DNA of 64,000 nucleotides from the NCBI GenBank assembly GCA_019914995.1, contig CM034140.1, positions 4,464,001-4,528,000 on the forward strand. Direction: 5' to 3'. Shown in pieces: positions 4,840-57,450 of the stretch (positions are counted from its first letter, which is position 1; each line of letters starts with the position of its first letter). The notes under the pieces are model-generated. The model was given only the letters and a program-made list of their open reading frames with translations. It ran no database searches and was not told the DNA's origin. The translations under genes and the position numbers were made by a program. The stretch comes from Acanthochlamys bracteata (lineage: Eukaryota > Streptophyta > Magnoliopsida > Pandanales > Velloziaceae).

Positions 4840-6184
4840 TCTGCAGAAGATAAAAGAGACCTGTAAGCACATCACAAAGGAGAAAAGATGCTAGCAAATA
4901 ACCATGAACATCCAGAGTTAAACACATTCTATTTAAAGTTGCAAATGCCATACACAATAGGGACAGTCCAAGAAACTCCTCACGTCCTGTTTGTTCAAAC
5001 CTTTATATGTATTATACATAGGGTGCTATATCTAATCCAACTAAAATATGCAATGTAAAGATCATTCAAGAAAAAAAAAGTATAATAACATCCAGCCAAT
5101 AATGAGCAACCTGATAGTAATAAAGAATTCAATCAACCTGAGAAATCATAGGGTGCTATATCTAATCCAACTAAAATATGCAATGTAGAGATCATTCAAG
5201 AAAAAAAAAATAATAACATCGAGCCAATAATGAGCAACCTGATAGTAACAAAGAATTCAATCAAGCACAGGTCTAATAAAATTGAGCTGCAACTCACCTC
5301 ACCATCTTAATCCAGCCGGATTTCTGCAGCAGTGACAGCCTGCAAAACAAAATCACAAGCTTGCTGTAATTTTTTTGCTCGGTTTATCAACACAAAAAAA
5401 AAAAAGAATCCAGAAAATTTCAAAAAAATAAATCGAAATCGTAATCTTTATGCTAGCGATTCGTTTGTATTCAATAAGAATCAAGCTTTCTCAAACAAAG
5501 CCACAAATTATCACTTGGGCAAAGCCACCGGTTTACCGAAAAGATAAACCAAAAAAATCAAAAATATGAAAATTTGATCTTTGACCAACAGATTGAACTA
5601 GAACCCAGAGAAAACAGTTTTTTCAAAAGAAAACCGATCACAGGAGGAAGATCGGTTTTCTTTTGAAAAAAGATTCGAATTTAAAAAAATCAAAAAAATT
5701 AAAAATCGAAATAAAAATAGAAATCGACCGCAGTATGGATTAGTTAAAATATCTGTGATCAAAAAGAACGAAACAAAACCGATTGGCGGGGAAGAGGATC
5801 ACCCGATTCAACGGAAAGTAGATCCGGTGAAAACGAGGGAGCTCGTTTGCGAGAATCCAGCCACAAATGGAAGAATTGAGGAGAGCAAGTGCGAATCTCG
5901 TCACTGGCTGCTGCCGTGCGGTTGATTTCGCCGCTCGGAGCGGAAGAGAACGGGAGAGAAAGAGAGAACGATAGAGAAGATAAAAAGAAGGGGAAAAAAA
6001 CAATACAACACAGTCCGTAAAACAGGGACGAAAATTATATTTTTGCCCCTAAACAGTAACTCCGTAGTAGTAGTTAGCGAGAAATGAGTGAATACATCCT
6101 GACTGTCGGATCAAAAGATCCGACGGTCAGGATTTGGCGTGCCCGGATGTCCCTAATGCAATGAGGTGCCCATAACGCGATCCA
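4840..6184 (-). repeat. Right terminal inverted repeat arm
   Basis: This is the inverted copy of the left arm, with small indels and substitutions. It includes a direct duplication of the segment containing tgctatatctaatccaacta (about 5025-5130 and 5155-5260). On the minus strand, just inside the arm near 4790-4840, a short run reading LEFGFDYSFGFRGN and a stop follows an AG acceptor. It may be the tail of a lost protein, but it matches nothing I recognise. Confidence 0.75.
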
Positions 6185-11898: not shown

Positions 11899-12254
11899 TA
11901 TATGATATCTTGTCAATAGATATAAGTTTTACGTTTTGAAGATGATGGATCACAGACTAGATGGGATAGTGAGTAGAAGCAAATTATTATGTATATTTAG
12001 ACTTCATTCTGGTATTGAATTGAAAGAATTGTTTTTAAGAAAATTAATTTTAAAAACTCAACGAAAGTCTTGATTCTAGGATAAGCAATTACCAAAATAA
12101 CCTAGTTCAAAGCATATGCTAATTCGTCTCAAATCTAACTAACCAATCACCATGACACAAGTCACCCCTGCTACAATACAAGTCAGTGAGCACTGAGCAG
12201 CCACTTATTTAGAAGTCCTTCGTCCCCTTCCTACTCTTCAAAGCTGTTTTATCC
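11899..12254 (+). promoter_or_regulatory. Upstream region of the UGT gene
   Basis: The space between the MITE and the ATG. It is AT-rich, becoming pyrimidine-rich (tccttcgtccccttcctact, 12217-12236) just before the start codon, as in a plant leader. I see no clear TATA box. Confidence 0.4.
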
Positions 12255-18477: not shown

Positions 18478-19061
18478 TCAACCTATATAAAGCCTTTTTA
18501 ACTTATAAATATAGTCAGTTCTTTCTAATACCCCATAGCTAGGTGAAAGCTTCATATATACTTTTTCTTCTAACTCACCATAAAGAAATGCATTTTTTAC
18601 ATCAAACTGCTGTAAGGGCCAATCAAGATTTGCTATAACAGACAGCAACAATCTGATAGTATTAATTTTTACAACTAGAAAAAAAATCTCGTAATAATTC
18701 ACTCCATAAGTCTGTGAGTATTCCTTAGTCATTAACCTTGTCTTATACCTCTCGATCGTTCCATCTATTTTGTGTTTGATGGTGTACACCCACTTACAGC
18801 CAACTGCTTCTCTAGTGCTAGAAAAAAACTCACAGTTGCTACCTGATTAAATAAAGTCATATATAATGGGGACAATCTGTGAGAAGACACATTATTAGCA
18901 ATAGTATATCTAAAAGCCTTTCTTTCTAGTGAATATCTCTCAGGAGATTTTTCACGATTTTTTCTATGTGACAACTGATAACTCCTGTTGACAATATTAG
19001 ATTTATCCATTATAATATTTTGAGTCTCAATACTTACTTCATACTTTATGAAAATCCTCAT
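18478..19061 (-). pseudogene. Copia reverse transcriptase remnants
   Basis: Two overlapping frames read through the start of the copia RT domain. The first has HRLSPLYMTLFNQVATVSF. The second has YTIKHKIDGTIERYK and QQFDVKNAFLYGELEEKVYM, the motif that holds the first catalytic Asp. The Y-x-D-D part is not found in frame. A frameshift near 18780 and lost downstream sequence show that it is dead. Confidence 0.88.
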
Positions 19062-19465
19062 AAGTTTGAACAGATACTGTAGAATACGAGATGGGAATTT
19101 CTTTCATAATTTTAACTCTTTCTATCTGTTCTATTTCTTTTGGTTCAAGTTTAGTAGTTCCAACCTCCTCCAATCCTTAGTCATGATTCACACATTATTT
19201 ATTACCTTCCTCAATATGTGTGCTGAGTTCAATGGTAAGTCAATTCAGATCTTCCGTAGATTTTATCTCCCCATGAAGATCTGATGTGATGTCGATCTAA
19301 CAAAGTAAATTTTCGACTTTAGAAATGTCACATCTATAGTCACAGAAGTACGGCGTGCCGGAAGATGATAGCAGCGATGACTTTTCTGGTAAGGATTATA
19401 ACCGAGAAACACTCATCTCAAAGCACATGGATCCAATTTATCTCATCTGGTTTTCAATAAATGTA

Positions 19466-20672
19466 CTAATGCAACAAAACCAAAGTCCGAGGTGAAAGTG
19501 AGAGGACAGAAGATATATTGATAAATGCAGATAAAATCTCAAGTGGTGTACAAAACTTTAGCATTTTAGAAGGCATACGGTTAATCAAATAAACTGCAGA
19601 CTGAATTACATCTACCCAATAGTGATTTAGAACATGGGCTTCAAAAATAAAGCACGGACAGTCTCTAAAATATGTCCAACTTTTTCTTTCAGTCACCCCA
19701 TTTTGTTGTGGCGTGTGTGGACAAGAGGTTTCATAAATCATACCATGATGATGAAGATAAGAGTTCAAAAACGTCTTAGCATACTCTCCTCTATTATCAA
19801 AGCGAAAGACTTGGGTAAAAAGAAAAACTGAGTCTCCAGTATCTTATGAAATCGCACAAATATATCTACTACATCATTTTTACTCTTCAAAGTAGATAAC
19901 CATGTCAAACCATACAATCATCTACAAATATCACAAACCATCTAATACCAATAAGTGTCATAACGGGAGAGCGTCTCCAAGCATCTGAATGTACTAATTC
20001 AAATGGAGTTGATCGTTTACTCATAACAGAAAAATAATGCATTCGGTGACTCTTACCAAGAATACAAATTTTACACTGAAACTCAAACTCTTTGAGGCCA
20101 GAAAATAAAGATGGTAATAAAGAATATAAATATGCGAAATAAACATGACCTAGTCGTCGATACCAAAGCCAAACTTTATTCCTTTTGTCAATATCAGATC
20201 CACCAACATTATGAACTTTTTCGGACATGATATTATCTAAATAATATATGCCTCCTCTCTTAATACCACGCCCAATAATCTTATGTGTCTGGATATCCTG
20301 AAGTAAACAAAAATATGGGTATAATAGAACAGTACAATTTAATTGTTCAGTAATTTGTCCAATAGACAATAGATTATTTGATAAAGAGAGATCAAATAAG
20401 CAATTCTGTAGAGATAAAGATGGTATTAGTATAACTGTTCCAATACCTATCACTAGATAAGTATCTCCGTTAGCATATATCATATTATGTCTAACCGGAA
20501 TGGTTGTGGTTTGAAAATTCCTCGGATCGAATGTCATATAATCCGTCACTCCAGAGTGTAAAATCCATCTCGTATCCTTGTTAGAATCTGACATAATATT
20601 TAGAGCACAAATTTGGTTATCTGAGAAGTCTGAACTAACCAATGCTTCCCTAAGGAGCTTTTTTTCCCTCAA
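19466..20672 (-). pseudogene. Copia GAG-pre-integrase and integrase remnants
   Basis: The first frame (19905-20672) covers the end of gag/protease, the pre-integrase zinc segment (LWYRRLGH...CKIC, with the first His changed to Tyr) and the start of the integrase core (ELVHSDAW, IRWFVIFVDD). The second frame (19466-19768) carries TPQQNGVTERK, with the last acidic residue of the D-D-E triad, and LINRMPSKML. Stops and frameshifts separate the parts. Confidence 0.9.
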
Positions 20673-20699
20673 TTCTTTCCACTAATTTGGATATCTAAT

Positions 20700-24038: not shown

Positions 24039-27000
24039 ATGGCCACAAGGAACCAAGCTGTTGTTGCTGCTCAGCCACATAAGGGTAATTGAAGTTTTTG
24101 TTACAAGATTTCGTTTTCTTTCTATAGAGGGCTTCTTTTCATGTGCGTTTGTGTTGGTTTCGGGATCTTATTTCATCGGAAAGAATTGATCTTTGGTGAT
24201 GACTCTGGTTTTTTGAGAGGTAATCGAAACTTTTGTGACAATCTTCGTTTTGTTCCTGAAGAAATTATTTGTCCTTCGTGATGAATTTTTGGGTTTTCTT
24301 TATAGGTAATTGAAGTTCTTGTTACGAGATCTCATTTTATTTCTTATTAGTTAGATGGGTGGCTTTTGTTACCAGTTTTTGGGATGGGTTCCAAGATATA
24401 GTGATAAGCAGAGATCTAGTTTCTTTATCACTATCAATCTGTAATATAATTTTTTTGGGTTTTCATCTGAATCCTGGCGTCTCGGTTTGTCTGCCTTTTC
24501 TGATGTGGTACTGTTCCTTTATGCGTTTCTTATCTGATTCTTGAATTAAAGCTTGCTTTCTCTTCGTGTTGCTTGTGGATTTCTCGTTTTGCTTGATGAA
24601 AATTGGTTTTTGCTTTCAGATACTTGAATATTTTTATTTTGGAGTTTTTTATGTTTTTTCTTTCTGAATTAAGAAGCACCGGTTTCATCAGGGATTTAGG
24701 GTTCCTGTTCAGTACCTCATACATGTTTTCTGGGGTTTGATTCATTCGAACCTTCCTGGCATATTGATGTCAGTTAGTGTTTAAGTAATGTAGCGTTTTG
24801 TTTCTTCTCTTCTGAGATTTTCTTCAAACAAGTGCTACGGACATTATTTTTCCATCGACTTTCTATGTCATTCTATATTTCTGAAACAATTTGTTCTCAT
24901 AATCAGCCCGGGCTGCAGAGGCAGGGAAGCAACAGAAGGTAGCTGCTGAAGGAAAGAACCGCAGAGCTCTTGAAGACATAGGCAATCTTGTTAACGTCCG
25001 CATCGCAGAGGGGTAAGCTCTAACCTAGTGGATCTGCCCTTGAGATGTTTTTTTAAAATTTATTGAATTTAACTGGTAGGTATTTCATATAGTTATTTGT
25101 ATTCTGAAATTTTCTAAAAAAAGGTTTGCTGGCTTTGTTCTCTTGTAGCAGGAAGCAATTGTCTCAGGTCAACAGACCAGTTACTAGGTAATTGACAATT
25201 CTCTTGTTCGGCTTCTGTCTAGCAATTCTCAGAACTGGTTATAGTTCTCATTGTGTTTCTCTTTTGATGCTTCTCTGGTTTATCGCTCATGATGTTTGTG
25301 ATGTTTCTTTCGTGCAGAAGCTTTGGAGCTCAGCTCCTTGCCAATGCCCAAGCAGCTGTCAATGGCGCCGGTGCTGCCAGCAAGGTAACTTTCTTCTGTA
25401 TTTAGTGGCAATATTCTATGACGAGAAAAACATGTACTCAACAACGTTGTTCGTTTGCTTGTGTATCTAATCCAATGTGCAGAAGCCAGTTGATCTCGCC
25501 ATTCCAGATGGCGCTGCAAAGAAGGGTGGCGCTAGAGCAGCCAAACAGAAGGCTGTAGCCAAGCTAAAGCCAGAAAAACTCATTGAGATTAGCCCTGATA
25601 CATGCAAAAAAGAGAAGGAAAATTCTGTATCCAGGGTGGCCTCTCGTGGTGGTAAAGCCTTAAGGAAGAAGGTTGACACCCTCTCTTCAGTGCTCACTGC
25701 AAGAAGCAAGGTAGAACACAGCAACTTTGCCTTTCTATGATAAGGCCCTTCTTGCTAAGTTCTTGTTGATTCTATTCTTTCTCACATTTAATTGATTTTA
25801 CAGGCTGCCTGTGGAGCCACTGAAAAACCAAAGGAGTCTGTTCATGACATTGATGCAGCAGATGCTGGTGATGAGTTTGCTGTTACAGACTATGTTGAAG
25901 ACATTTACAAATTTTATAAGCTCTCTGAGGTATGCATTAAGTACTCTAGTTTCCTACTACAAAGCTCTGATGGCAATTCTAAGCTAACATTCTTATTCTT
26001 CATTTGGTATCACAGAATGCTTGCAGGCTTCATGACTATATGAGATCGCAACTTGAGATCAATGCTAAGATGAGGGCCATCCTGGCTGATTGGTTGATTG
26101 AAGTGCACAACAAGTTTGAGCTGATGCCTGAAACTCTTTATCTCACTATCTGCATCATTGACCGCTACCTGGCAATGGAGAATGTTTCGAGAAGAGAACT
26201 GCAGCTTGTTGGACTGAGTGCGATGCTCATTGCTTGCAAGTATGAAGAGATATGGGCTCCCGAGGTATATAAGCTGAAAAGTTCCTCTATAGCTTGTTAA
26301 GTGTGTTTTACATTATTAGGAATTGGAAAGCTATTGCTGGTTGATGACTGCTGTTATACATCATTGCATGCGCATGGCAATGTATAGCTTGATTATATTT
26401 CACTACTTGAAATTTGTAGAAGTTGGAAACCTATTTGCAGGTTGACACATCATTGCATGCCCATGGCTTCAAAAGTATGATAATTTGTGTTAGTTTCTTT
26501 AGATTTCACTAATTGAATTACTAGAAATTGGAAACCTAATGCAGGTTGATAACTGCTGTTATCAATCATTGCATTCGCAGCTTCAAAAGTATGATAATTT
26601 GTGTATAGCTTGTTTAGATTTCATTGCTTGAGTTACTAGAAATTGGAAAGCTGCTGCAGGTTGATAACTGCTGTTATATACCTTATGTGAACTGTGTTTT
26701 ACATCACTGCATGTCCTCGGCTTCAAAAGTATGATAATTCCTTAGGTTAGCTTGATTGAGATTTGACCACTTGCAATCACAAATCGGAAAGCTTTTGCAT
26801 GTCAATGGTTTCTAGTATCACTTATGTTAACTGTGTTAATTTGACATCATTGCAGATCCATGATTTCATCTGCATCTCTGATCGAGCTTACACCAGAGAA
26901 CAGATACTAGGAATGGAGAAAAGGATTCTCAACAAGCTTGAGTGGACACTGACTGTTCCAACACCTTACATGTTCCTTGTACGATTTGTCAAGGCTGCAA

Positions 27001-27560
27001 TTTGTGACACGGAGGTCAGTGTTCATCCTCATTACTTTAAACACTCTTGTTAATGGAAGTTTTCTATATCATGGTTCACTTGGTGCTTCCAACATACATG
27101 CAGATGGAAAACATGGTTTATTTCTTATCTGAACTGGGCTTAATGCAATACAATGTGATGATCACCTACCGCCCATCTATGATTGCTGCTGCATCAGTGT
27201 ATGCAGCAAGGTTGACATTTAATAAGACCCCCTACTGGACTGACACACTGAAGCACTACACTGGGTTCTCTGAGCAACAACTGCTGTAAGTGTTATTGGA
27301 GAAGTGTGTATATATAAAGTAAAAGATATCTGATTGTGTAGGATGCTGAATAAATTCCATGGAATTTTTGGTGCAGGGACTGTACAAAGATCTTGGTGAG
27401 CTGTCACTCAGCATCAACAGCACCAGAGGGTAAACTGCAGGTTGTCTACAAGAAGTACTCTAGCAGCCAAGTTGGATCTGTGGCATTGCAAACTCCGGCA
27501 ACGAAACTTCTTGAAGAATTGAAGGCTTCACACGAACATGATCTGGACAAGAGGAATTGA
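24039..27560 (+). CDS. CYCB1: G2/mitotic-specific cyclin B1 (ten exons)
   Basis: A regulatory subunit of the mitotic cyclin-dependent kinase, active at G2/M and destroyed by the anaphase-promoting complex. Exons: 24039-24084, 24907-25012, 25152-25187, 25318-25384, 25483-25710, 25804-25929, 26016-26264, 26856-27014, 27104-27285, 27377-27560; they join in frame to 460 residues. The destruction box RRALEDIGN is at 34-42. The cyclin box starts near residue 210 and carries [20 protein letters not shown] from M222 (Ala replaces the common Val), followed by the C-terminal cyclin fold. [16 protein letters not shown] and the lack of B2 features favour B1. There is no upstream ATG between the TATA-like site and the start. 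Intron 2 ends in tagcag, a tandem acceptor; exon 3 is called from the second AG. Introns 1 and 7 hold tandem repeats. MSA sites upstream fit mitotic expression. Confidence 0.93.
24083..24345 (+). repeat. Tandem repeats of the exon 1 donor region, cyclin intron 1
   Basis: ggtaattgaagtttttgtta (24084-24103) recurs in diverged form at about 24221 (ggtaatcgaaacttttgtga) and 24305 (ggtaattgaagttcttgtta). Each copy keeps a possible GT donor, so alternative first-exon ends are conceivable. Confidence 0.7.
26321..26810 (+). repeat. Tandem repeats in cyclin intron 7
   Basis: About five diverged units of 100-140 bp start with aattggaaag-like words at 26321, 26421, 26526, 26641 and 26781. They share ttgataactgctgttat and gcttcaaaagtatgataatt. 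Several contain gcaggttgat, which looks like a decoy 3' splice site. Confidence 0.8.
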
Positions 27561-32176: not shown

Positions 32177-32770
32177 TGTTATGCGTATTTATAATGCTCT
32201 TTTTTGAAGCGCCAACTCTTATAGTAATATGGAATAGCAATGTTATTTTTTCTTTTCATTTATTCATTATCTATTAGGGTGGGATGTTGGTATTCAAGGG
32301 GAAGTAATGACTTTAGGGAGGAAAGATGAACGTATTGGCAGAATTCTCAGATCAGCTGAGGGAGCTTGTATTGTGTGTTGTGAATGTCTTAAGTAAAATG
32401 AAAAATGATGTAATGTTGTGTAAGTTGTAAATGAATGTTGTAATTCTCATTTACAATGTAAATGAAAATAGTTACAAGCTTTGAAGCTTTGCGAAAATAG
32501 TTGTTGTGGCCAACATTGTGAATGAAAGGGCTATGCTGATTGTGAATGAATGAATTATAAAGCTTGTAAATGCATGAATCATGAAATAGCAAGTTTAGCT
32601 CTCTGGAGGGCAATTTCGTTGCTAGGGTCTGTATCAAGCATTCACATTGTGATTTCATTAACAAGAACTCTTTAGACATTCATCTTCCAATCACTACTAT
32701 TGATATTTACATTCACATACATAGACATTCATATCTGCATGTTTTGGACATTGACCTTCATTTGAGGAGG
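31151..32770 (+). mobile_element. Probable one-ended MULE-like remnant
   Basis: The stretch 31200-31640 looks like a transcribed leader (CT-rich, then GC-richer with ccgatc/ccgacgg words). It is followed at 32390-32760 by atgaatgt / acattcac-rich DNA, the same sequence style as the arms of the MULE at 6626-11665. A second inverted arm is not found. A 34-base T run lies at 32142-32175. No gene can be supported; frames here are short and interrupted. Confidence 0.35.
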
Positions 32771-33520
32771 ATGTTTGCATCCTACGGGAGCATGAAAGTA
32801 CTCGTAACTGTCTCTGTCCATTTCTCTAGCAAGCTATTTGTTTTTGTTTTGCTGTTGGCATCGGTGTGAGCCTATTAGCTGGTTGTTGAATACTATTATG
32901 CATGTAGTTAGCATTGCATATATGATAAATCGTTGCAGCTCATACAATGATGTAGTTATGTGGTAGTCTTCGATAATCATGAGGCAGGTTGTTATTATAC
33001 GTTGCTTCGCCGTATCAATCAAGTAATCAGGAAATGGGTTCCAATACCTGTGGTTGGGCCTTCTGAAAGGCAAAACGTAATAATGTTGGATCATTTGGTT
33101 GTGCCTCTTGAAAGTGGCTCCAACAACTGATTATCTGTTGCATACTGACCTAATCGGTCAGTGTGCAATACTGACCCGACAGTCAATATGCTGATCCGTG
33201 ACCCACAATCAGGATATAATTCTGGATTGATCATCGAGTCAGGTCCTACACATTGCCCACTGCTAACACTTATTTTTCTCTCTGGAGTCTAGGAGGTTGC
33301 TTAGCATGACTTCTTCCTTCTTATTCTATCTCATTTTTAAATATTTATTGTTAAATGTCAATTTTCAGAATTTTTTTAATTTAAAAAAGATGGATATACA
33401 CATAATCACTATATATATAACTTTTTTATATTCAAAAAATTGACAAATATGTTTTTCAAAAAATACTCACCAAAAATTTATTTTCTTCAAAAGTTCTTTA
33501 AGCAATCCCAAATAGCTCCT
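32771..33520. other. Unassigned intergenic DNA
   Basis: Unique sequence of moderate GC content (32830-33290) with no recognisable frame or termini, then AT-rich DNA. Confidence 0.35.
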
Positions 33521-36592: not shown

Positions 36593-37625
36593 GGCCACCA
36601 TCGACCATTTTCTTTCTCACTCTCTGTTGTTCGAATCTTAATTCAGGCAGCTTTGGTTTCATCAACTGGTAATCTCTATCAACATTACCTTAGATATTCT
36701 TTTTTTTTTTTTTTTTAAATTTCGGATTCGTTGCTCCTCTGGATTTGTGGCACGAATTTTTTCAGCACTTCTACATATTTTTGCTATTGTGTGAAACTGC
36801 AATGTTGGCAGATTTGCTTTTGATTGTTTTAGTAATTATGGTATTCCATTGTTGTTAATAGATACACAGCAAGTTTGATATTATTTGCTATATGCTGTGA
36901 TGTTTTGCTATTGTTTTTGTTGTTGGATTTTCTAATGATTTCGTTAATTTGTTTTTTTTTTAAGCTAGTTTTAGAGATTTTTCTGGAGCACTTTCTTAGC
37001 GCTCAAAGTTGAAGCATGTATGGCGTTTGTGTCTTTTGCTTTGATATTTCTGAATAGGCATTTTAAGTAGATCTGGTGGATTTTTGCTTCGTTTTTTGAG
37101 AGAATTTTCATATGTGATTGTGTCTTTGTAAAAATCAGTAATTGCTTCTCTGTTGAGGTTGTTCTAGGTTGTAGATAATAGCATGTTTGGGAAGATGGAT
37201 AGTCCATGGCTTTGGCTAATTTATATTTGGTGGAGGAGATTCTATAAGTCAATGTTACTAAAGCAACATCTCTGAGATTTTTATGTTATTTATAACATAT
37301 TTGGCTAAGTTAATAGTGTTACGTGGTATTCTGAGACAATTTCTTTTCTAGTTGAGTGTTTATGTGCTAGGCAGTGGATACATTAATGATTCTTTTGTGG
37401 CTAAATTTATAGATGTATTGGTTGAAGTCTGGTAAAGGTTTAGTTTGTGGAGACTCGATGTCTCAATACAATTGGAAAGAGCGTATCTGCACTGTCCTCC
37501 ACCTGTGGAGTAGATTTTTTAAATTCAATTGATCTTCTGATCTGTGGGAATGTAACAAATACGATTCTTATCTTCTAGCAAACAAACATGTTCTAAATTT
37601 TCTTGTTCATGGGGTTTCAGTTGAA

Positions 37626-40627
<3,002 letters not shown>

Positions 40628-42900: not shown

Positions 42901-44199
42901 CTATCTAACTGGAAATCGCCTGAGTTTTTCCCTTTCTCTGAAGATAGGATGCCTCCGGCGACCGCCATTGCGGCCACCTTGCTTGACGATTTTAGTCGGC
43001 TTGGAACTGTTTGCTGCTCTTTGCTTCTTCGCGCTGCCATCCGGCTCCAAATCTTCTCCATCTCGCTTCTTGTTTGCATTTTCAGTCAACAGTTTCCCTG
43101 GCTTCTCCAACACGGCGAGAGGCTTGCTGTAAGACTTCACTAAACCCGCTGCACAAGATTTCTTTTCTTGTTTGCTCTGCTGCTGAATTCTTGGAAAAGC
43201 ATTTGTGTTCTTCTGCAAACCGATCCCTTTTTTCTCCATCTTTGAATCACAGAACCGCCCCGTTTGCCTGCCGGAAGTTTCAAGCAGATCGACATTGCCG
43301 CCTCTGCCGTTCTTGATAACATCGGCTGTTCTTTGCTTTTTCACGGCGTGACTTGACTTCAGAACCTCTCCGGCTCTCTTCTTGTTTACGATTTCCGGGA
43401 ACTGTTTTCCGATGAGACACATCTCCATCTTTCTTGGCAACTGCTTTCGTGGTATCGCGGTAACCGGTGGCGCGCCGGAACACTTCAAAACAACAGCTGC
43501 ACTAGATTTCTCTTCTCGTCTGTTCACCTCTTGGATTCTTGGAACAGAATCACAAAACGGATCGATTTTCTGGCCATCAGTTTCAAATTGAAGCTTTCTC
43601 TTTCCCTCAGAAGTCGGCGTTCCCTCATATAAACTCTTTGGTGCAACTTCTTTTACATATTTCTTCACAACCTCTTGCTTGCGACAATGTCGAGAAGTCG
43701 CCACTAGGGTTGCTGGCTTCGTAGTTGTGCTCGCGAACGTTGATTCCCTCGTTCTGTCGATTGACTTCATCTCCTTCTCATCATCAACCTTCACATTGCC
43801 GGAAAGAATCGATGAAGCAGCAGCAGCATTGATGATCAATTTTTTATCTTTGCTCACAGGATCAACAGAATAGTTATCAGAGAAACTATTCTTTTTCTTC
43901 AGTTTGATTACAACAACGTTCCGCTTCTTGGGTGGTGACTGTTGTGGTGTTATCCCTGTTGTTGTTGTTTCTGCTGTTTCTTTCTCCTCCGCAATGTCCG
44001 GCCGCGGTGGCGACGTTAATGAACTAGAGTTGTAGTTGGCGTAGAGAGATTCTAACAGACGGTCACGGTAGCGACAGAGATCGGAGGGGTAATGTGTAGA
44101 AGCGACGGCGATGCTTTGCTCGATGATTTCGAAGATGTCGTCGACGGAGCTACGGAAGAAAGAGCGCCACTCGCTGTCGTTCTCCGATGATACTCCCAT
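42901..44199 (-). CDS. Intronless basic nuclear-type protein with MED26/TFIIS-like N terminus
   Basis: 432 residues from MGVSS; an in-frame Met 8 codons upstream (44223) is less likely because the leader is short. Residues 10-52 (EWRSFFRSSVDDIFEIIEQS through YRDRLLESLY) resemble the start of plant MED26/TFIIS N-domain proteins, which have a similar xFRSxxxDIFxxIexAIxVAs...RRDrixErL pattern. The full helical domain is not present, so this is family-level inference. The rest is low-complexity, Lys/Arg-rich and probably disordered, with nuclear-localisation-like PPKKRN (89-94), AVKKQR (285-290) and SAKKQR (389-394). Residues about 209-297 and 310-400 are an internal duplication. A TATA box (ctatataaac on the minus strand, 44268-44277) lies about 70 bp upstream. 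The function is unknown. Confidence 0.75.
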   Translation of the reverse strand: MGVSSENDSEWRSFFRSSVDDIFEIIEQSIAVASTHYPSDLCRYRDRLLESLYANYNSSSLTSPPRPDIAEEKETAETTTTGITPQQSPPKKRNVVVIKLKKKNSFSDNYSVDPVSKDKKLIINAAAASSILSGNVKVDDEKEMKSIDRTRESTFASTTTKPATLVATSRHCRKQEVVKKYVKEVAPKSLYEGTPTSEGKRKLQFETDGQKIDPFCDSVPRIQEVNRREEKSSAAVVLKCSGAPPVTAIPRKQLPRKMEMCLIGKQFPEIVNKKRAGEVLKSSHAVKKQRTADVIKNGRGGNVDLLETSGRQTGRFCDSKMEKKGIGLQKNTNAFPRIQQQSKQEKKSCAAGLVKSYSKPLAVLEKPGKLLTENANKKRDGEDLEPDGSAKKQRAANSSKPTKIVKQGGRNGGRRRHPIFREREKLRRFPVR

Positions 44200-44267
44200 T
44201 GTTGTACTATGTCTAGTAATCAATCAAAATCTTTCGGAGAAAAAGAAACGCATCAGGTCTTCTGTTT

Positions 44268-45115: not shown

Positions 45116-46330
45116 GTGTGTGTGTTTTGATTTTAAAATAAATTGTTAAAAATAATATAATTTTTTATTTTAAAAATAAATTTAAAATAATTTTTTTATA
45201 TTTTTTATAATAAAAAATAAATTAAAAATAATTTTTAATAAAAAAATCACTTTCATGTATAAAAGAATGCATAGTTACTCCTCACGTTTATATTCTAATG
45301 TTTTATAAGCCCAATTTTACCTATTGTAAGTGCTTTTTAAAAAATTAAAAGTTTAAATCTTTAGTTAGATACAAATACGCGACTATCATTTGTTGCTTGA
45401 ACACTTGCAACATCTATTCTCACTGGATAAAAATAATGAAGAGAAAGAGAGAAGGTTAAAACTGTCGGTTACTAAAGTGAACTGAAATTATTCAAATTTT
45501 ATTATCAACAAAATTAGGTATATTCAAGTAAATACTTTTTCTGAAATCTAATAATTTGTTAAATATTTAAATATAAATTTTATTTTATTTCAATTATTTG
45601 TAAAAATAATATTTTAACATCAATAATGTGGTTAGAGATGCGCCCAACGGTGTCAAAGATGTCGCTCGAAAATATACTCATAGTACTACTTTTCTTTAAT
45701 GAATACCGGATAAATTTGCCTAATTAATATAATACATTTTCTTTATACAAATAAGACATGTTCGGAATTGTTTATCAATGACAAAAAATTTTTTCAATTC
45801 CAAACAAATTATATATAATTTTTAGAATTTAAAAATATTGATAACATATAAATTATAAAATAATTATATGTATAATTTTTATATTTTAAAATTTTATAGA
45901 ATAGTATAACTTTTTTAAAAATATAAAAACTTTTAAAATTTTTTTAATAAATACTTTCAAATATTCTTAAAATTAGAAGATAGTTATTCTTATGTTGTAA
46001 GAATGCAAATTCATAAATTATTCATTGAACGTCTAGAAATATTTATAAAATATAAATATTTTGAAAAAAATATTTTAAATATAAAATTTTATTTTTTATT
46101 CAAAAATAGTAAAAATTATATATATATATATAATTTTTATAAAATATTTTTTTGTAATTTTAATTTTTTAAAACATTTATAAAAATACAGTGAAAATACT
46201 AATTTGAAATAATCAGATGTCCAGCGGAATGCCAAAACTCTTTTTAGAATTTCAATTTAATAAAATTTCAATATTATAAAATAAAAAATTTAGTAAAATT
46301 TAAGTTAAATAGAGAGCCAAACAGCTACTT
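45116..46330. other. AT-rich intergenic DNA
   Basis: No gene. It contains further A/T-rich foldback-like stretches (about 45770-45990, 46030-46310) that may be old MITEs. The MOC1 leader begins near its end. Confidence 0.4.
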
Positions 46331-46366
46331 ATTGCAGAAATCATTCCCGGCGGGACAGCGGCCACC

Positions 46367-49300
46367 ATGTCTGCTGCTGTCGCCGCCGCTTGTTCCGGCG
46401 CCTTCAAACCCCCGCCAACATTCTTCTCTCATATCCGGCGAAGCCTCTGCACGGTGGGTCCTGTAGTTTCAGCAAATAAATTGCTCATTAGTGAGCCTGG
46501 GTCGAAGCCTCGGGCCCGAGCTAGGGTTAGAGATGCTGCCGCGTCTGCGGCGGTGATCAGAGAGAGGTGGTTGGGATCGTTGTGTTCTCCCTTTTCTGAA
46601 AATCTCGGCCGTTTGAAGAACGAGATTGACGAGTCAGAGTCTGGGTGGGTGATTGGGATCGACCCTGATGGTTCAGGAGCTCTCGCCCTCCTCCAGCCTG
46701 ATGGTTCAGCTCAGGTAGTTTCCATATCTCTCCAGTGTTCTCGTGTAGTTACTTGTTAAAGTTTAGAGTTCTGGACATTTCAGGCTTTGTGGTAGATGTT
46801 CGTTTTAATTTTTGTATGAAATTTGGATAAGCAATAACTCTAGTTTTTGGAGAAAATCTGCCTTTGATCATCTGAAGCCTCATCTTGATGTAGAGACTAG
46901 TCTCACTAATTCATATCTGAAATGGTTTGCTGTCCAACTCATATAGTGGTTCTGCATTACGTGCATCATTACATATGAAGCAAACTAGCTCTAGTAATTG
47001 GTGTAGCTACTCAAGGAAATGACTGTGTGAATAATTTTAATTCTTTGCAACTTATAGTGCTTATTCGATAAGCCTTACATGTGCAGATAGCCGTTATGAG
47101 ACTTGGAATTCTTCAAATTAACTTTTCATTTTTTTTTCACTTGAGTTTATTAGCATTTGATTCTGTATAAACACATTTGTTTCTTGTTTAGGTGTTTGAT
47201 ACTCCACACGTGCCAGTGTTGGTTGGGAAAAGGGTCAGAAAGCGTTTGGATGCAAGGTCCATAGTTCAGTTGCTTCACAATTGCAAAGCACCACCTGGTA
47301 TGAGGTACCTTCTATGACATTTTATCAGTAAATCTTTTTAGTTGATTTCTTGTAGTTGTAATAAATGCTCCATTATGAAAGGTATCTGTTCTATAGTTCC
47401 ATCTAAATTACGCTTTACACCAGAGCTTTCTGGTATGTGTTGTGCATAGAAAAAATTTATGAAGTGATCATGTCTTGCTGTTTTGACCTCTTTGCTTAGC
47501 TAATTTGTGCTATAAACCGTAGGATCGGATCCACTTGGTTCAATCTAAGGCGAGTTGCTGTCCTACTTTTAAATTACTTAGTCCATTTTTTACTTTGGCA
47601 CTATTTCAGGCTCCGGTACTGCTAATCCGTTACCAAGCTAATCTGTCTTTTACTTGGTCCCACCAAGCCCTATTCGCTACTATTTCGATCATAGCATAAT
47701 TTGGAGGCCCAACATGAACTATGCCCTATAGTATACATTCTTATAGTTAGCAAATGTTAAAAAACTGATTTACCTCGTACTATACATGACACTTACATTG
47801 GTTGCTGGTGAGACATTCTTTATTTTGTGGAAGCTGATATTTGATAACTCATTAAAGTTGATAACTCGTCTACAGATTCAAAACTTTTACTCTACAGGAG
47901 TGTAAACCTTATACTCTAGATGAGTGTTTTTTAAAAACTTACAGTCAGATTGTGTGATTTGAAATTGCAGTAAGAATAACTTTATTGCTTTGCTTTTTCT
48001 ATGCCTGGAAATATAATATGCTGGACCTTTCTACTGATATAGCACTCGTATTGTTTATCACCAAAAGGATGAACTAATCTATGAATTATTAGTTGTCACA
48101 TTGCCATGTTTATATGATCTTATCTCCTTAGTTACTTTTTATTCACTCGATAATCCATTCACAAGAAGTACAACCATAGATTGTGTTTGCTCTAAAATGA
48201 TTGTTTTAAAATGTAGAAAATTCATGATTTTCATGCTAAAGTGATTTTTGGATGAAAATTCTATGTTTCTTTTTGTGATTTGCAATTAGAATGTTATATT
48301 ATGATTATTGGACACCTCAATATGGATTTGGAGAGACATTATTCTTTCTTCTTGATTTCAGGAACCACTGCATATGTTGAGCAGTCCATCCCATACCCTA
48401 AAGATGGTAAACAGGTCAGTTCAAGTTTATATATATATATATATATATGGACAGATAGATGCACTCTTTCGTTGGGGGCACTTCGGAGCACTTTTTTCTA
48501 TTTTTTAGACCGGAAGGTCTTAAAATTTAATCCTCACCGTTGGATATGAAAAAGTATGAGTTAATAATACTGACAAAAGTTTAACTCAATCGGATTACAA
48601 ATTAACCTTTATTTGACCACGTGATTAAGATAATAAAAAAATAATAATATATATTTTTTGGAGAATTTCATATTTATGTTATTTTCATCAAAAGGCAGGA
48701 TGAAGGTCGATTCATAATACGATCGAGTTAAAATTTTATCAATATATTTCTAACTTATAATTTTTTGTATTTAATTATAAAAATTGGATTTTGAGATAAT
48801 GCTGGCCATAAATCGGCCGGGAGTGCTCATAAGAAGGAAGTGCTTTATCCCACCCCGTGCATGTACATGTAGGGCCATAACTAATAAATAAATAAATATA
48901 TAGAAAGTAAGAAATTTTTTTAAAAAATATATATTGTATCATTTCTATTATTTTGATCAAATGACCGGATGGAGGTGAATTTATGATCCGATTGAGCTAA
49001 AATTTTGTGAGTATGTTTCTTAGTCATAGTTTTTCATATTCAACGGTAGAGATTAGATTTAAATATCACTGCGGCCATAAACTGAAAATAGAGTGCCCGA
49101 AAATGTCCCTAAGAAGGGGTGCCCATATCCCTTCCTTCTATATATACATCTATATATGTATAGACATATATATCTGTGTATACATGTATACATGTACATA
49201 CATATGTGTGTGTGGGCGCGCCTTTTCTAATCTAGGGAGGGTTATTATAGAGCCATTAATTTTTCATATTTGCTTCAGTTCTGCATGCACTTCGCCAATG

Positions 49301-51561
49301 CCTGTTGTATTGCTGGATTCTGCATTTGCATGCACTTCATTTCAGTGGGTACATCGAGGCCATGCCATACTTGTCATAATGAATAATTACTGTTTTCATG
49401 TGGATGTTCATACTGTTTTATGAAATAAAATCTCAACTCTTTCCAGTATACCAACTGAAATGCGCTTAGAGAGGAATTGCAACAATATCTCCTTCTCTAA
49501 AGCCAAAGGTGAATCAATTCATTCTCAAAATATTTTAAATTTAATTCACGAATGTGCTATGAGGCTTTCAAATTTTCCGCAATACTGTCATTTCATATCC
49601 TCGAGCTTCAACTGGAATTGGATTTTCTGCTCCTCGTTAGTGTTTTTAACTATACAAAAGGATTGTCACATAAATTTCATTAATCAAGTGGGTTTTGCTT
49701 GTTGTTTAGCGGTATGATGCAGATGGTGTGGTGCAACACTCATGATCCATGAACGTATTTGCTTTGTGATTAAATCTTGCTCTAGAATGGAAAAGTGTGT
49801 AGCAAATAGAACAATAGGAAAGAGAAAAGTTCGTTGTATTTGTTTCAATACAGATACATTTATGGCCCTGTATAAATATCTTCAACTTGAGCCAAGGGCA
49901 AAGGTTTTGTCCTTTTTTTTGGGTAGTCTTTCAATAGTTGTTATTCACTCATGAACATGAGGTGCTTCACCACTGTTTGAAGAGGTTAAGTCTGAAAGAG
50001 TCTCTCTTTGGGCAGGGTTGGTGGAGTGGTGGATACACATATGGAATGTGGATTGGTATCCTAGTTGCTTCTGGATTTTCAGTTGTGCCCATATCTTCTT
50101 ACCGGTGGAAGGATTATTTTGAACTATTTGGAAGTTCAAGTAAGGTTAGTTTCATCTCTGGCTAAACTCCTGAAATTGGTAGGAATCAGAATGGGGCTTG
50201 ATCAAATTTTTGTTTAGCCACTGCTTTCCATGTTTTTAGTTCCTGAAGATGGTGATTTTTTGGACTGCCAGACAGTTTATGAGGGTTTTGAACTGGGATT
50301 TTTCCTTCTGCTGGCATAGCTTGTAAATCCTTACATTGCATGTGTGTGTTACCGTTTCTAATGTAGTTACTCAATATTGTATTAGATGAGCACGATTTTG
50401 TGGATGGAATGGGTTGCTGAGAACATCGTAAGATAAAAGAATCTACTTTCATAAGAAGTGGCCTTCTTTGAAGTATTTGGTGAAGGTTTACTTGGATTTG
50501 GCAGTCAGTTTTATCACTCAGGTGGTCATGGATACCCCATACCTGCTGGATACTCTTAGTGTTGGTTGTAAGATTCTTTTAAAAAATTTTTTATTTTAAA
50601 AAATATTTGGACAGGAATACAGGCAACATTCTAAAGATACTATTTTCAGAAGGTCGAATTCTGGTCAGTGTTACTCTAAAATGTCCCAGAGTTCCTATAT
50701 CTTTCGAGGTTATATTGTTTTTCTGCTCAAAATATAGTCTATTCATTTTGTTAAGAACAATACAGTGATTACTTGAGTGCTAGTAATTCATGTAATGTAT
50801 TTGCGGTGACTTATTTTATTCCATTTCTAAACTGCCGAAGTTCTTTAAATTATATCTGTTTCTTTTTAACAGGATGATTCCAGAAAAACTGCTTCCCTCT
50901 TATTCCCTTTATTGAGTTCTCAGCTAAAGCGAAAAAAGGATCACGGTGAATTCTTGACTTCCTATTCTGAAGTATTGAGTAATGGATGATTGTGTATTCT
51001 GAGGGCTTTAGCTGTAAGGGAATCGGAATGGGAATGATTGATTCCTGTTGAGTGTTTGGTTGATTTGGGAATCAGAATGAATTATTTGTTCCATTGCTTT
51101 GTAATGATAGTAATATAAATGATCTAATATTCTAAATGTTATAGTATGGGAATCAGAAAATGTAAATGAATATGATGGGGGAGTGAGAAGTAGGTTTTCA
51201 ATAATAATTAACAGAAATGAAAAGTAAATGCCAAGAGAAAAATATGGAATCAATTAGACACAGTGATCCTGTTTATTCGGATGGGAATGAAATACAGAAT
51301 TCTACTGAGCAAACACTAGAAATGGCTCACTCTGTTTCCAATAATTAAATTAAGTGACGCCAACACGTTCTTAATGTCTATTTCTGTACAATTCTTATAG
51401 TTAGTTTCATATTGGTCTAGGTACTTTGATTCTTGATCTTTACTGTGTATCTTGCTTGTGCAGGACGTGCAGAGTCTCTCCTCATTGCTGCATATGCCAA
51501 GGGTCTTAGGATTACATCAGAAGTGATTGCATCAGATGAAAAGATATGCTGCAATGTTTGA
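46367..51561 (+). CDS. MOC1: Chloroplast Holliday-junction resolvase MOC1 (six exons)
   Basis: An RNase H-fold, RuvC-like structure-specific nuclease that cuts four-way DNA junctions and is needed for chloroplast nucleoid segregation. Exons: 46367-46714, 47192-47297, 48362-48414, 50016-50144, 50873-50945, 51464-51561; they join in frame to 268 residues, typical of the family. The start codon has a strong context (gcggccaccatg). Residues 1-60 are Ala/Ser/Arg-rich and poor in acids, as in a plastid transit peptide. Catalytic-core motifs: [13 protein letters not shown] (first Asp), AYVEQ (Glu), [11 protein letters not shown], and [13 protein letters not shown] near the C terminus (last acidic residue). 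All look intact. Intron 3 (48415-50015) carries foldback MITEs, one starting within about 35 bp of the donor. Confidence 0.93.
48447..48860. mobile_element. Foldback MITE, copy 3 (full length), in MOC1 intron 3
   Basis: Its two arms (about 48447-48655 and 48660-48860) pair with each other and match copy 1. The arms carry actcaatcggattac on one side and the block ending ggccataaatcgg on the other. The left end sits in a (TA)n tract that begins 15 bp after the exon 3 donor. Confidence 0.78.
48908..49132. mobile_element. Foldback MITE, copy 4 (half), in MOC1 intron 3
   Basis: It matches the second arm only: tgatcaaatgaccggatgga, gatccgattgagctaaaatt, ggccataaactgaaaa and a gtgcccatatccc end next to a TA/CA microsatellite (49135-49215). 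It has the same half-structure as copy 2. Confidence 0.7.
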
Positions 51562-53340
51562 TGGCCCATGAAGTTCCTTGGTAGATGGTCCCCCATAATT
51601 GATCGAGAGAATGATGAGACAGAAGGCGGCCTTATGAAGAAGCAAGTAGCATGTGAATGTGCTACAGGTCAGGTGAACTTTCTGAGATAATGAAGAAAGA
51701 CATCTGAGGAGTTCTAAGGTTTATTTAGATCAAATGTGCTTCTTTAATAGTTTAGCTTCATTTTGGGCTTTTTTATGTCACTTTATCATTCTATCCACTA
51801 ATTTGATAGTTGCGTAACTATGATGTAGATTTCGTTCCTTCCTGTGCTAGACTTTAGAAAATAGTAACATTTAGCAATTTTAACAATTGCTTTTGTTATA
51901 CTAGTGTTCCATTTCTAAACATCTTTTGAAGTTACAGACATCCTTATACACTAATTGCACATAGTGGACATATGCAAAAGGAGCAGTTTTTATGGTTCTG
52001 GCCTTATAATGTTCTTCTGTTTATCATACTGGAAGGAAATGCAGACTTTCATTTCTATAATATAGTAGTTATCATCTCTATAGTATGTTGTTTGATCGAA
52101 AGAGAAGTTGATCATCTCTAAGAAGATTCTCGGAACATACATGAACCTCGTGTCATTTTGTTCATGTACACTAATAGTTGTTATCGATTATAAAAGATTC
52201 TAGTACAAAACTCAAAATTTGATTATATACAAGTATAAGATGTTTTTATTGTAGTGGATTGTGATAGCGTTTCAATGGAATATAAAGTGTGAAACTTGTC
52301 TTAAAAGTGATATTTTCTTGGAAAGGGCAAGTATTTTGGCTTGAAACACATATTGGAGACAGACTCATGTTTAATTTGGCAGATACCTGGACTGAACTTT
52401 CTGGGCTAATAGTTGTAAAGTTCATGTTCGAGTTAAGTTGCCATACATATAAATTTGGAATTGACGTTTTAGTTTTGGTTGGTTTTGTAATATTTTATGG
52501 GTTTGTCACTCCGCCCGATCATATTCTTGCTAAGTGCATATTGGAAATAGTTTGGACTACATTTGCATCATTGCTTGTCAAGCAAATCCAGAGGTTCTTG
52601 TGTTTTGATTAATGACCGATTTGGTTCTGAACTTTCTTATGTGATCTTAAGAACATCAGTGGTTAGTGGTGAAGATTACAGCATTTACAGCAAATATATA
52701 GTTGATCCTGTTGATGACATTTTGAAATTCTCGAAATCCTGGCCCTCAATGTTAAGTAGGAAACATGGATCTCATATATAGCCTCTATTACTGATGCATG
52801 GATAGTTATGTTATAACGCCAGTAACGTACCTGAAGTTGCATGACTACAACTAGTAGTCTGCAGAATCCTACTAATACTGCCTTCTGCTTAAAGATTTCT
52901 CTTTTGTACTACAGGGATGTATGTTAGATTGAACATTGAACGCATGAAGGCCCTATGTTCTTGGCAACTTATTTACTTACATATGTTACTAGATTGAATC
53001 GGTTCCATAAAAGCAATCTGGTGTGAACCATAATATGATGTTAGTGGATAGCAAAGTAGATTTTCTGGTTAGCAATCCACCAATGACTAGATTATGGTAG
53101 CAGGCATAGCCTTTTTCCCCTTTTAAGTTACGCTATAGACTATTCCTTTGATTTTATTGTTTGTTCTGGATTTTGAGTCATTGTGTCTGGGTGGATGCTT
53201 TTTAGCGGCAGGAATTCTGTCTTTATATTGGAATGAAGGTGCTTTTTCAGGATTAATAGCTTTGCTTTGGCCCATTGGCAAGCCTTATTAAGTTTATTAT
53301 TGAGTCGGGACATATATATTCGCCAAGTGCTTTATGATTT
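51562..53340 (+). other. MOC1 3' flank and start of a duplicated spacer
   Basis: No gene seen. 52570-52860 aligns in direct orientation with 54150-54420 (shared tacagcatttacagcaaata / tcagcatttactgcagattt, and gttgatgacattttg / gttgaaaacatttg), so it is part of the local duplication around the peptide genes. Confidence 0.5.
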
Positions 53341-53504
53341 ACTCTTAGGTTTTTTTTGCATCATACACAAAGCGAAGTAATGTCTTATTTTATTGAGCTA
53401 GAGACAATTGATGACGAAGTGCTTATCGAGCTTGTTCTCATCATTCAACAATTGTTACTGTAAGTGTCTTGGTGGTGGTGACCTGTTGGAGGAGGTTAAA
53501 TCTC

Positions 53505-53641
53505 TTAGCTACTTGGCAACTTAGGTGGTTGTGGCCTTGGAGAGAATTGCTCACCTACGATAACAACAAATACTTTTTACTTTTTTCTTCAACATACCCA
53601 GGTTCAACAGTAGGTTGCTCAGGTAATTTTCCTGTTTAGCG
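53505..53641 (-). pseudogene. Broken copy of the small secreted peptide gene (exon 2 only)
   Basis: It aligns with exon 2 of the intact gene at 54642-54775, including the atattgcag acceptor. The first part reads AKQEN, like the intact copy. A one-base shift then moves the tail into another frame, where it reads SPRPQPPKLPSS and a stop, matching the Pro-rich end of the paralogue. The second conserved Cys is lost, and no first exon with a signal peptide is found on the expected side (53700-53960). It is therefore a decayed tandem duplicate. Confidence 0.65.
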
Positions 53642-54641
53642 CTGCAATATGTTGAATAAGAATTTGGCGAGGAGGAATCTGAAATATGCAATATACTATT
53701 TGTTTTCCCCATTCTGAAACTATTTGGTTTTCCGTTAGTGATGCAGTGCAATAGTTAGATAGTCGACTTGGCATCTTTTTTTATATAGAAACAAAGGTAA
53801 AGTTTCTTTAGACGCTTATAGTGGCACATCTAGCTCTAGGTTTCGTGCATTTTACAGAAGCCGGGAGTTTTATACACTTTCACTTTCACTTCTAGGTTTA
53901 TACATTATATGGTCTCTTGTAAATGAAAACGAAGAAGGATATAGTTGCATCATGTTTTATTGCATGTTTTATTCACATCCTTAGATGAATTGAATCACCT
54001 AGGTAAAAGAGCCACATGTCACAAGAGCTCTTTGGAAGTGAGCCTGAGCCCATATGCCGAAACTATGGCTTTGCCCAACGCCATACTCTCTTTGTTTTCT
54101 GCTTGTTGCGTAAGTGCAAATCGAAATCAGTGTGGACTTCTTACATTCATTTTACTGCTTCTAAAGCCAATCTAGAGGATTCCATATTTTTATTAATGAC
54201 CCAAAAGAACTTCCTCACCCGACCTTCAGAACAATGGTTCAGCATTTACTGCAGATTTTACATAGTTGATGCTGTTGAAAACATTTGAGCTTTGGAATTC
54301 ATGGCTGCATGTCCTAGTTGAGTACATAACAAACAATTTAAATTTATCTTTGCCTCCATTAGCAATAGATTTCTGGAATCTTTAGTTAAATGATAACTCC
54401 AGTAAAAGCACCAGAAAATCCATGAGTCCGTCTGCTAGTTCTACAAATTCTGTAAATTCTCAGTTAAGCGAGATAGAGTAATGTCTCATTTTATTGATTT
54501 AGATATGACTGATAACGAAAAGCGCTTCTCGATTTTATTTAAATGAAGCAACAATTTGATAGAACACTACTGAATTGCATATTCCGTAATGCACCCACCA
54601 TGGCGATGGTAATGGTGACCAGGACAGGAGGTCACTCGAAT

Positions 54642-55128
54642 CTATGAGCTAGGAGGTGGCGGCGACTTTGGATAGCACACTGGCTCTCCTCTGATTCTAA
54701 CGCATACTTTGTTTTCTTCAGGATGTCCAGATACAGCAGTCAGTTGCTCAAAGCTATTTTCCTGTTTTGCAGTAGCTGCAATATGTTGAACAAGAATATT
54801 ATAAGGAGGAATTTGAGCATAATTATAGCTATCAACAAGCTAGAAGTCATCAGGGAAAAAAGAGACGTTATAGTAGTTCTTTAAGAAAAGTTGCTTTTAG
54901 TTTTAAACTTTCTGGATTTTATCTGTGAAGATCTACCAGAAATCTGTACCTGCGCTTTAAGCAAGGCTTTCATATAAATGAGCCTGAAATCTATATCTAA
55001 CAAAATTTATGTACACGGGCAAATTAAGTGATTTACTTACAGAGTTCCCTTGCTACACCTTGAGGAACCAGAATGCCGGTGACAACAAGGGCTAAGGTAA
55101 AACTTGGAAGAAGAATCTTTGAAGCCAT
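54642..55128 (-). CDS. Small secreted peptide, C-x8-C family, gene 1
   Basis: Exons (minus strand) 55041-55128 and 54642-54775, gtaagt donor and ttgcag acceptor, phase 1, 73 residues. Residues 1-26 form a signal peptide (MASKILLPSFTLALVV start, hydrophobic core, Ala at the likely cleavage site). The intron falls right after REL (27-29). The mature part is about 47 residues, with two Cys (C54 and C63, exactly eight residues apart) and a Pro-rich tail ending PPPPSS. A TATA box (tttataaata, minus strand, about 55175-55185) lies about 50 bp upstream. I do not recognise the family; size, signal peptide and the Cys pair suggest an apoplastic signalling or defence peptide, which is inference. Confidence 0.72.
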
Positions 55129-57118
55129 AGCGAACTGCTCGTTGAAATTGCATAGGGATCGTGGCTTTCACCGAAGGTATTTATAAAGAGAAAACGGAGA
55201 TACTTCTCAGAGTCAGGTGCAAGGTTTTAACTTTGCCACCTTGTTTGAATACTCGTGAAACCAAAATTTTCAAGATTGAGTATGACTAAAAAAAGAAACA
55301 GAGTATATTGCCAAACAGACACTAACTTTTTCATGCATTTAACAATTATTTGCTACTATATTGTCCTCTTGTACATCAAACGCGATCAACGTGGTTATTC
55401 ATTCAACATTGGTGTGCCATCGTAGTAGAATAAATGGTTATTGCTAGTCATTGTCTTTGGATAAGATTTGTGCCAATTAGTCAAGAAAAATCATCTCGTA
55501 CAACTGTTAGTTTCCTTTCTTTTTCTGATTAGTTTACCGGTCAATTCTCTCTAAGCTTCATTTAGTATTTGCTTATTTGGGTTCGTTAAGTTCAAATAAA
55601 TCTAAAACAAAATTTTTGGGTGTTTGGATTATGAGCTTAAAGCAAGTCGTTTAAAGCGTATTTCAATTACATAAAAGTGAGTTTCATAGAATTGAGTTTC
55701 GTAAAATTATAGTTTGATGTGAAGTAGAGTTAGGTAGAAACAGGATTTGAAATGATAATTGGAACACCTAAATTTTAATAAAAATAGAGTTCAGTGTGGA
55801 AGTGAAAGTGATGTTTCTGGTTGTAATTGAAACACGTGAGCAGAATTCAAAATTTGAAGGAAGGAAGTAGAATTCAGTAGCAATTAATACATGTCTTAGA
55901 TAGTTTAGATGCTACTTATTTATAAATAAAGTGAACGTTATCTATAAACCAATTGCTTATTCATAGGCACTTATTGATATTGAGATAAATTGTTTGCCCT
56001 TGAAAATGTTAAAGCGATGTGAATGCTAATTATTTGAAAATTTTTATTCCTATCTTGTACTTAATTGTTTTCTACAAATATTTAATAATCAAGTATGTTT
56101 AAAAAATATATTGAAGTAACAAATTAAATTATATTAAAATATATTATAAATTTAACATATATCACATATTATAGAAATAACATTTCAATCATTTATATTT
56201 TCTTTCAGTTATATGTATTTTTTTCATTCAAACACTATTCTAAACTTACTTTGAGGCATTTGGCGCTATCACATTTTTCAATAAAATTTTTATAATTTTA
56301 AAGAATTTATTTATAAATTTAAAAATATAAAAAATTTTGTGTGGTAAGATTTTTATTATTTTTTAAAATAAAAAAATAGAATTTATTTTTCATAATAAGA
56401 TAAAATATTTTTTGTTAAAAAAATATCTATTTTATAAGTACTCTCCAACACTCCTGAAAATAAGAATTTTCCATTAAAACGCACTTAGAAATTAAGCTAC
56501 TTATTTCATAAAGAAACCTAAACTGCTTAATTAAAAAATAAGTTATTTATTTAATAGATTCTTGATTTTTAGCTCACGCCTAGATAAAGTTAGATAGGTT
56601 CTTTTAGCTTTCAATATTTTATTATTACTTATTTTTTAGTATTTTTGAGATAAAAAAATAAAATTTTATTTAAAATAAATATTAAATACTTTTTATTTAT
56701 TTAAAAAAAAATTACTATCAAATATATCTTCAAGTTTGTAAATTACAAGTTCCAGCCGAATATACATGAGTTTGATTCGGAAGTTGAAAAAGTACACATG
56801 CTTTTTGTCTTCACCTTGACGTATAGAGGATTCAATTCCTCGATGATAACAAAGAGGTAAGTATACCTGGTACTGGTAGGAAGAACTAACTTCTCGAGAA
56901 CAATACTAACTACTGGAGCTGAGCACAAATATCGTTTCTTCCAAGAGAGTCGGAGGTAAAGTTGATAACGATTATTGTAATATTATATTTGCAGGACTGT
57001 GAACATATAACTAAAATATTATAAAGAAGCATGGATGATACACACAACATAACTTTCTTTTTATTTAGAAGTAGTACTCCAGAACTCGTATGCTTGAAGG
57101 AATTTGTATCTGATGAAA
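55129..57118. other. Spacer between the peptide genes
   Basis: No gene seen. 55600-55930 is A/G-rich with repeated aattgagttt / gtgaaagtg words and may be an old MITE. Confidence 0.4.
56248..56458. mobile_element. AT-rich MITE family, copy 4
   Basis: It runs from gcatttggcgctatcaca to agtactctccaacactcc, with the same internal A/T blocks as the other copies (aattttgtgtggtaagattt, aatagaatttatttttca). Confidence 0.55.
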
Positions 57119-57450
57119 CTATGGTGTTGACGGAGGATTGCATTTGATCCAGTTCCTAACCTTCCAGCATTTGCGCTTATCTTCCATCACATCTCCAGCA
57201 TGATGGCGAAGACTTCCTTCTACATTTGTTTCTCCTGCAGCAGCTACATTCAAGTAGGGGGAAAAAAGAATAAAATGTTTTACTGGTCATTACTGATCAT
57301 CTAAGAAGAAAAAAATATAAACTTATTATCAATAAGAAAACAAAAAGAACGAAACTCACTGAGCTCTCTTGAGTCCACTTGTGGGATGCAAGGAGATGAC
57401 AGAACTAACATTACGGCCAGAACAAGTACAAGCAAAGCTTTCGCATTCAT
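57119..57450 (-). CDS. Small secreted peptide, C-x8-C family, gene 2
   Basis: Exons (minus strand) 57360-57450 and 57119-57243, gtgagt donor and atgtag acceptor, phase 1, 71 residues. The signal peptide covers about residues 1-27 (MNAKALLVLVLAVMLVLSS). The intron again follows REL (28-30), and the first residues of exon 2 (TAAGE against STAKQE) are alike. The C terminus has C56 and C65, again with exactly eight residues between, followed by NPPSTP. C21 lies in the signal peptide. The same intron phase and position, REL motif and Cys spacing make it a paralogue of gene 1 despite low overall identity. Basic residues DKRK just before C56 could be a processing site (inference). Confidence 0.72.

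Follow-up and report, generated by a model that had tools for sequence, protein, structure and literature searches.

A tandem pair of putative phytocytokine-type genes with a two-cysteine, proline-rich C-terminus in Acanthochlamys bracteata

Regarding small plant peptides that carry a cysteine pair at the C-terminus, the closest described kind to the genes considered here appears to be CTNIP/SCREW, as judged by the fit of architecture. As described in PMC9191895, AtCTNIP4 is a precursor of 70 amino acids, of which the last 23 residues (48-70) are sufficient for activity, and the two members of its cysteine pair, C58 and C68, are both required for HSL3 binding and BAK1 recruitment. The same source filtered its candidates for two cysteines with a spacing of 9-11 amino acids, and reports the family from Amborella, eudicots and non-grass monocots, with more than 40% of its members unannotated. 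Five CTNIP precursors are known from Arabidopsis, including the close locus-number pairs AT1G06135/37 and AT2G31335/45 (PMC9191895), and AT1G06135, AT2G31345 and AT1G06137 appear in a table of the genes that flg22 induces most within 30 min (PMC4191550). HSL3/NUT signalling has been connected with stomatal and stress control (PMC13056886, PMC12907539), and a PSGP core has been ascribed to a Pro-rich group that includes CTNIP (PMC11331138).

The window, meaning the whole stretch of 64,000 nucleotides analysed here, is part of contig C15 of a genome of 195.5 Mb, the sole plant genome searched for paralogues. It holds two minus-strand genes of two exons each, A and B, arranged head to tail with about 2 kb between them, whose features are as follows.

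57450-57119, minus strand: gene A, 71 amino acids
57360..57450, minus strand: gene A exon 1, signal-peptide-like N-terminus of about 27 amino acids, then REL; phase 1 end
57244..57359, minus strand: gene A intron, 116 nt, GT-AG, phase 1, GTGAGT...TTGAATGTAG
57119..57243, minus strand: gene A exon 2, variable middle, C-terminal two-Cys peptide, stop
57140..57169, minus strand: gene A C-x8-C, Cys56 to Cys65
57060..57065, minus strand: putative poly(A) signal AATAAA of gene A, about 54 nt past its stop, read from sequence
55128-54642, minus strand: gene B, 73 amino acids
55041..55128, minus strand: gene B exon 1, signal-peptide-like N-terminus of about 26 amino acids, then REL; phase 1
54776..55040, minus strand: gene B intron, 265 nt, GT-AG, phase 1, GTAAGT...CATATTGCAG
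54642..54775, minus strand: gene B exon 2, variable middle, C-terminal two-Cys peptide, Pro-rich tail, stop
54675..54704, minus strand: gene B C-x8-C, Cys54 to Cys63
55178..55185, minus strand: TATA-like box TATAAATA of gene B, about 50 nt 5' of its ATG, read from sequence
54534..54539, minus strand: putative poly(A) signal AATAAA of gene B, about 103 nt past its stop, read from sequence

The initial annotation, which had described two minus-strand genes of 73 and 71 residues, was right to the base in its coordinates. The phase-1 intron that it placed immediately after REL is borne out in both genes (57359-57244 in A and 55040-54776 in B), with the REL codons directly preceding the intron and exon 1 stopping one base later. 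Likewise, the two C-terminal cysteines with exactly eight residues between them are found at positions 56 and 65 of A and 54 and 63 of B, and the proline-rich end corresponds to tails of 6 residues (A) and 10 residues (B) past the last cysteine. Gene A has a further cysteine at position 21, inside the presumed signal peptide. As for the signal peptide said to be common to both, the N-termini are indeed hydrophobic, and its presence is predicted by inspection and hydropathy, with cleavage placed before REL by inspection. Both the splicing of the two introns and the secretion of the products are thus predictions from the gene sequence.

C-x8-C close to a stop codon is a common pattern. A strict scan, whose criteria were set only after the pair had been seen, required an ATG followed by a hydrophobic start, a phase-1 GTRAGT donor, an acceptor with a pyrimidine tract, C-x8-C at most 14 residues from the stop and a length of 55-110 amino acids. 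In the window it returned three candidates, namely A, B and one at 32326-33194 (plus strand) that is without a credible signal peptide; when a spacing of x8 to x10 was allowed, a fourth appeared, corresponding to an alternative splice of exon 1 of gene A. The strict scan gave no candidates in 180 kb of other DNA from the same genome, including the 20 kb duplicate block described below and 40 kb of window flanks. Applied to 400 order-2 Markov windows, which are simulated without real gene structure, it found a single match in total and no window with two, and an earlier set of 60 simulated windows gave no matches. A pairing of A and B by chance is unlikely. A much looser scan of the window and the other DNA was full of spurious candidates, so C-x8-C alone means little.

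Comparing the two genes with each other, their exon-2 parts align with a score of 34; shuffling gave a mean of 9.5 and attained the observed score in 1 of 5000 cases. The score of the C-terminal part alone was reached in 7/5000 shuffles, whereas that of the middle was reached in 1253/5000, so that similarity in the middle is not detectable and the conserved part is the two-Cys C-terminus. A and B are tandem paralogues with their homology concentrated in the C-terminus, as would be expected if the C-terminus were the active peptide and the middle a propeptide. It had been proposed that the combination seen here, fixed architecture but variable body, is typical of secreted signalling or defence peptides. 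This proposal has gained partial support: the fixed architecture stands in the non-chance pair and the conserved two-Cys C-terminus (7/5000), the variable body in the undetectable similarity of the middle (1253/5000), and the open state of A and B, compared with broken copies elsewhere (see below), is counted toward the signalling or defence reading.

Set against CTNIP/SCREW, the likeness extends to precursor size (71 and 73 amino acids in A and B, 70 in AtCTNIP4) and to the hydrophobic N-termini, as seen by inspection and hydropathy; to the position of the cysteines, both of which lie within the last 23 residues in A as well as in B; and to the pairing of the genes, as in Arabidopsis by locus number. 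On the other hand, the cysteines differ by 9 positions in A and B but by 10 in AtCTNIP4, so that the pair just falls within the published 9-11 when positions are counted and lies outside it when the count is of the residues in between. The tails past the last cysteine, of 6 (A) and 10 (B) residues, are also longer than the 2 residues of AtCTNIP4, and neither the literal C-T-N-I-P nor the PSGP core is present in A or B. The pair resembles CTNIP/SCREW and may belong to it, and the reading in which A and B encode precursors of a stress signal of this kind, C-terminal, closed by a disulfide and perceived by HSL3/NUT with BAK1, may be given about an even chance. That both genes form a phytocytokine-type pair is likely.

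The same differences bear on another possibility, that A and B are secreted two-Cys signalling peptides of a family not yet described, which uses another receptor and is unrelated to CTNIP/SCREW. Besides the spacing and tail unlike those of AtCTNIP4 and the lack of the literal motif, this would fit with the database comparisons: neither the A nor the B protein has a Pfam match, and no PDB sequence matches full-length B or its C-terminus. For the C-terminus of A, PDB sequences yielded Eps8-like protein 1 twice, with E values (0.4 and 0.6) no better than chance. However, the overall plan of about 70 amino acids, a C-terminal cysteine pair and paired genes is the CTNIP plan, and, as more than 40% of CTNIPs are unannotated and their cysteine spacing varies (PMC9191895), a separate family seems possible but less likely.

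Gene surroundings were also considered for the CTNIP/SCREW reading. As a pointer to induction by elicitors, W-boxes were counted in the 1 kb upstream of each gene; there is no excess, with none for A (expected 0.92) and two for B (expected 0.87), the latter count being reached in 48/200 simulations. Concerning gene order, Arabidopsis CTNIPs presumably adjoin glyoxalase II genes. In the present genome, the A/B pair belongs to C15 and the matches to PF16123 (glyoxalase II) lie at C8:2569455-2569805 and C18:1909469-1909855. Within 60 kb around each of these two loci, the strict scan, which intronless genes would escape, found no CTNIP-like gene, and the loose scan gave only candidates judged spurious, an outcome that goes against this reading.

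Other families of small plant peptides share part of the A/B plan. Defensins, RALF, EPFL and NCR peptides are likewise small and secreted, and in several of them an intron of phase 1 lies close to the signal peptide; they possess at least four cysteines, however, while the presumed mature part of A and B has two, with no Pfam match. PIP, CEP, IDA and CLE peptides are not known to use a cysteine pair, and A and B differ from them in conserving C-x8-C and in having no PSGP core. The likeness to the latter group, whose members PMC11331138 names together, lies in the secreted prepropeptide with a Pro-rich C-terminus, which A and B would share. A single scan across bacterial and archaeal genomes turned up 591 stretches that fit a pattern, none of them encoding a relative, as expected of a plant gene.

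The composition of the conserved part could also point to small secreted peptides that act directly, as antimicrobials or in some other way, and in which the loop closed by the disulfide would be cationic. The net charge of C-x8-C plus tail is +3 in A and +2 in B, and the loop of A contains two tryptophans. Nevertheless, this charge is modest, no Pfam family is matched, and a single cysteine pair with a short Pro-rich tail is unlike the multi-disulfide antimicrobial families of plants, making a direct antimicrobial role improbable.

Further evidence comes from broken copies of the genes at two places. A stretch of contig C10 aligns piecewise with window positions 46331-54816, at about 67-79% identity. 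This duplicate block starts with a gene whose window-side product matches MOC1, and carries relics of B and A in the same order and orientation as in the window.

C10:4993199-4993373: relic of B exon 2, 79%, splice acceptor and stop kept
C10:4993627-4993769: relic of A exon 2, 72%
C10, about 5002903-5003000: weaker relic of the A 5' side and first bases of exon 1, E 1.7e-4

The presence of both relics in the same order on C10 indicates that the tandem pair predates the block duplication. The relics contain frameshifts and in-frame stops, no exon 1 of B was detected within the 20 kb examined on C10, and the two relics of A stand about 9 kb apart, with repeat matches in between. On the window side, a putative MOC1-like gene for a chloroplast Holliday junction resolvase extends over 46313-52725 (plus strand), in the region copied on C10; for its open reading frame 46313-46756, comparison with the PDB gave MOC1 chains, with a best E of 2e-9.

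The second place is inside the window itself, where a broken third copy, missed by the initial annotation, can be added to the pair.

53578-53682, minus strand: third copy of B, broken, comprising the end of the intron and exon 2; 75.9% against 54705-54816 (112 columns), E 4e-15
53376-53453, minus strand: 73.8% match to 54477-54556, which lies 3' in gene B's direction; same local duplication

This copy has in-frame stops and also matches the relic on C10, and no exon 1 was recognised for it when the window was compared with itself. Apart from the pair, protein queries of the genome matched nothing but the B relic on C10; the third copy escaped them. The self-comparison also matches 52524-52722 with 54103-54286, and window positions 52483-53693 and 54103-54816 align to one shared part of C10, with an order of pieces that is not strict, owing to the local duplication inside the window. 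That duplication, 52524-53682 / 54103-54816, carries the broken B copy, and C10 has a single copy of the segment. Altogether, two genes in the window are open and a further copy is broken.

These copies bear on whether A and B could be decaying or untranslated remnants that are open by accident, given that three other copies, the C10 pair and the third local one, have decayed. Counted by codon position, B exon 2 differs from its C10 relic at 8/43, 3/44 and 11/43 sites and A exon 2 from its own at 8/41, 8/41 and 11/40, a weak bias that proves nothing alone and that agrees with such a reading as well. In contrast to the relics with their frameshifts and in-frame stops, the frames, splice-site pairs and stops of both A and B are intact, so that accidental openness is very improbable. 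The presence of broken copies at two places beside two open genes argues that selection has retained A and B and, at the same time, that the family loses members easily. A and B may also represent a fast-turning-over, undescribed family defined by C-x8-C and a Pro-rich tail, with a C-terminal disulfide loop like that of CTNIP and a different receptor, which we regard as a tentative possibility. The third local copy leaves the odds among the readings unchanged.

The rest of the window has a mixed content. On the minus strand, 42904-44223 forms one uninterrupted frame of 440 codons that matches no Pfam family at E 0.01, and 18481-20681 contains pieces of a Copia-type retrotransposon (RVT_2, gag pre-integrase). 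On the plus strand, 12213-15243 is UDP-glycosyltransferase-like, the open reading frame 14320-15243 matching Pfam UDPGT and 12213-12887, which has no Pfam match, being joined to it by eye; 25983-27050 is a cyclin gene, with Pfam Cyclin_N in the open reading frame 25983-26297 and the remainder assigned by eye; and 37533-40624 is a tubulin gene, with Pfam Tubulin_C in the open reading frame 39743-40624 and earlier open reading frames that are beta-tubulin-like by eye. Two oppositely oriented stretches separated by about 3 kb, 2275-2760 (plus strand) and 5743-6048 (minus strand), have similar translations, suggesting an inverted repeat or mobile element. A repeat element at 874-2185 has two copies (83% and 76%) in 20 kb of C10, and positions 1-570 form a long TA-rich microsatellite with all six frames open.

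Returning to the CTNIP/SCREW kind of reading, a mode of action can be proposed for the pair. The tandem paralogues A and B would encode small secreted preproproteins, whose signal peptide would direct the product into the secretory path and whose divergent middle would be a disposable propeptide. The active part would then be the last 20-25 residues, comprising C-x8-C, probably closed by a disulfide, and the Pro-rich tail. Upon stress, the processed peptide may be released in the apoplast and bind a LRR receptor kinase of the HSL3/NUT type, with recruitment of BAK1, which in turn would lead to Ca2+, ROS and MAPK signalling.

Genes of the size of A and B are easily missed by annotation, as illustrated by the CTNIPs, more than 40% of which were unannotated (PMC9191895). 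Gain and loss of members are seen in the broken copies, those on C10 as well as the one next to B. As detectable conservation is limited to the two-Cys C-terminus, it would mark the active part and supply peptides for testing, making the A/B pair an ordinary yet useful find with a clear test.
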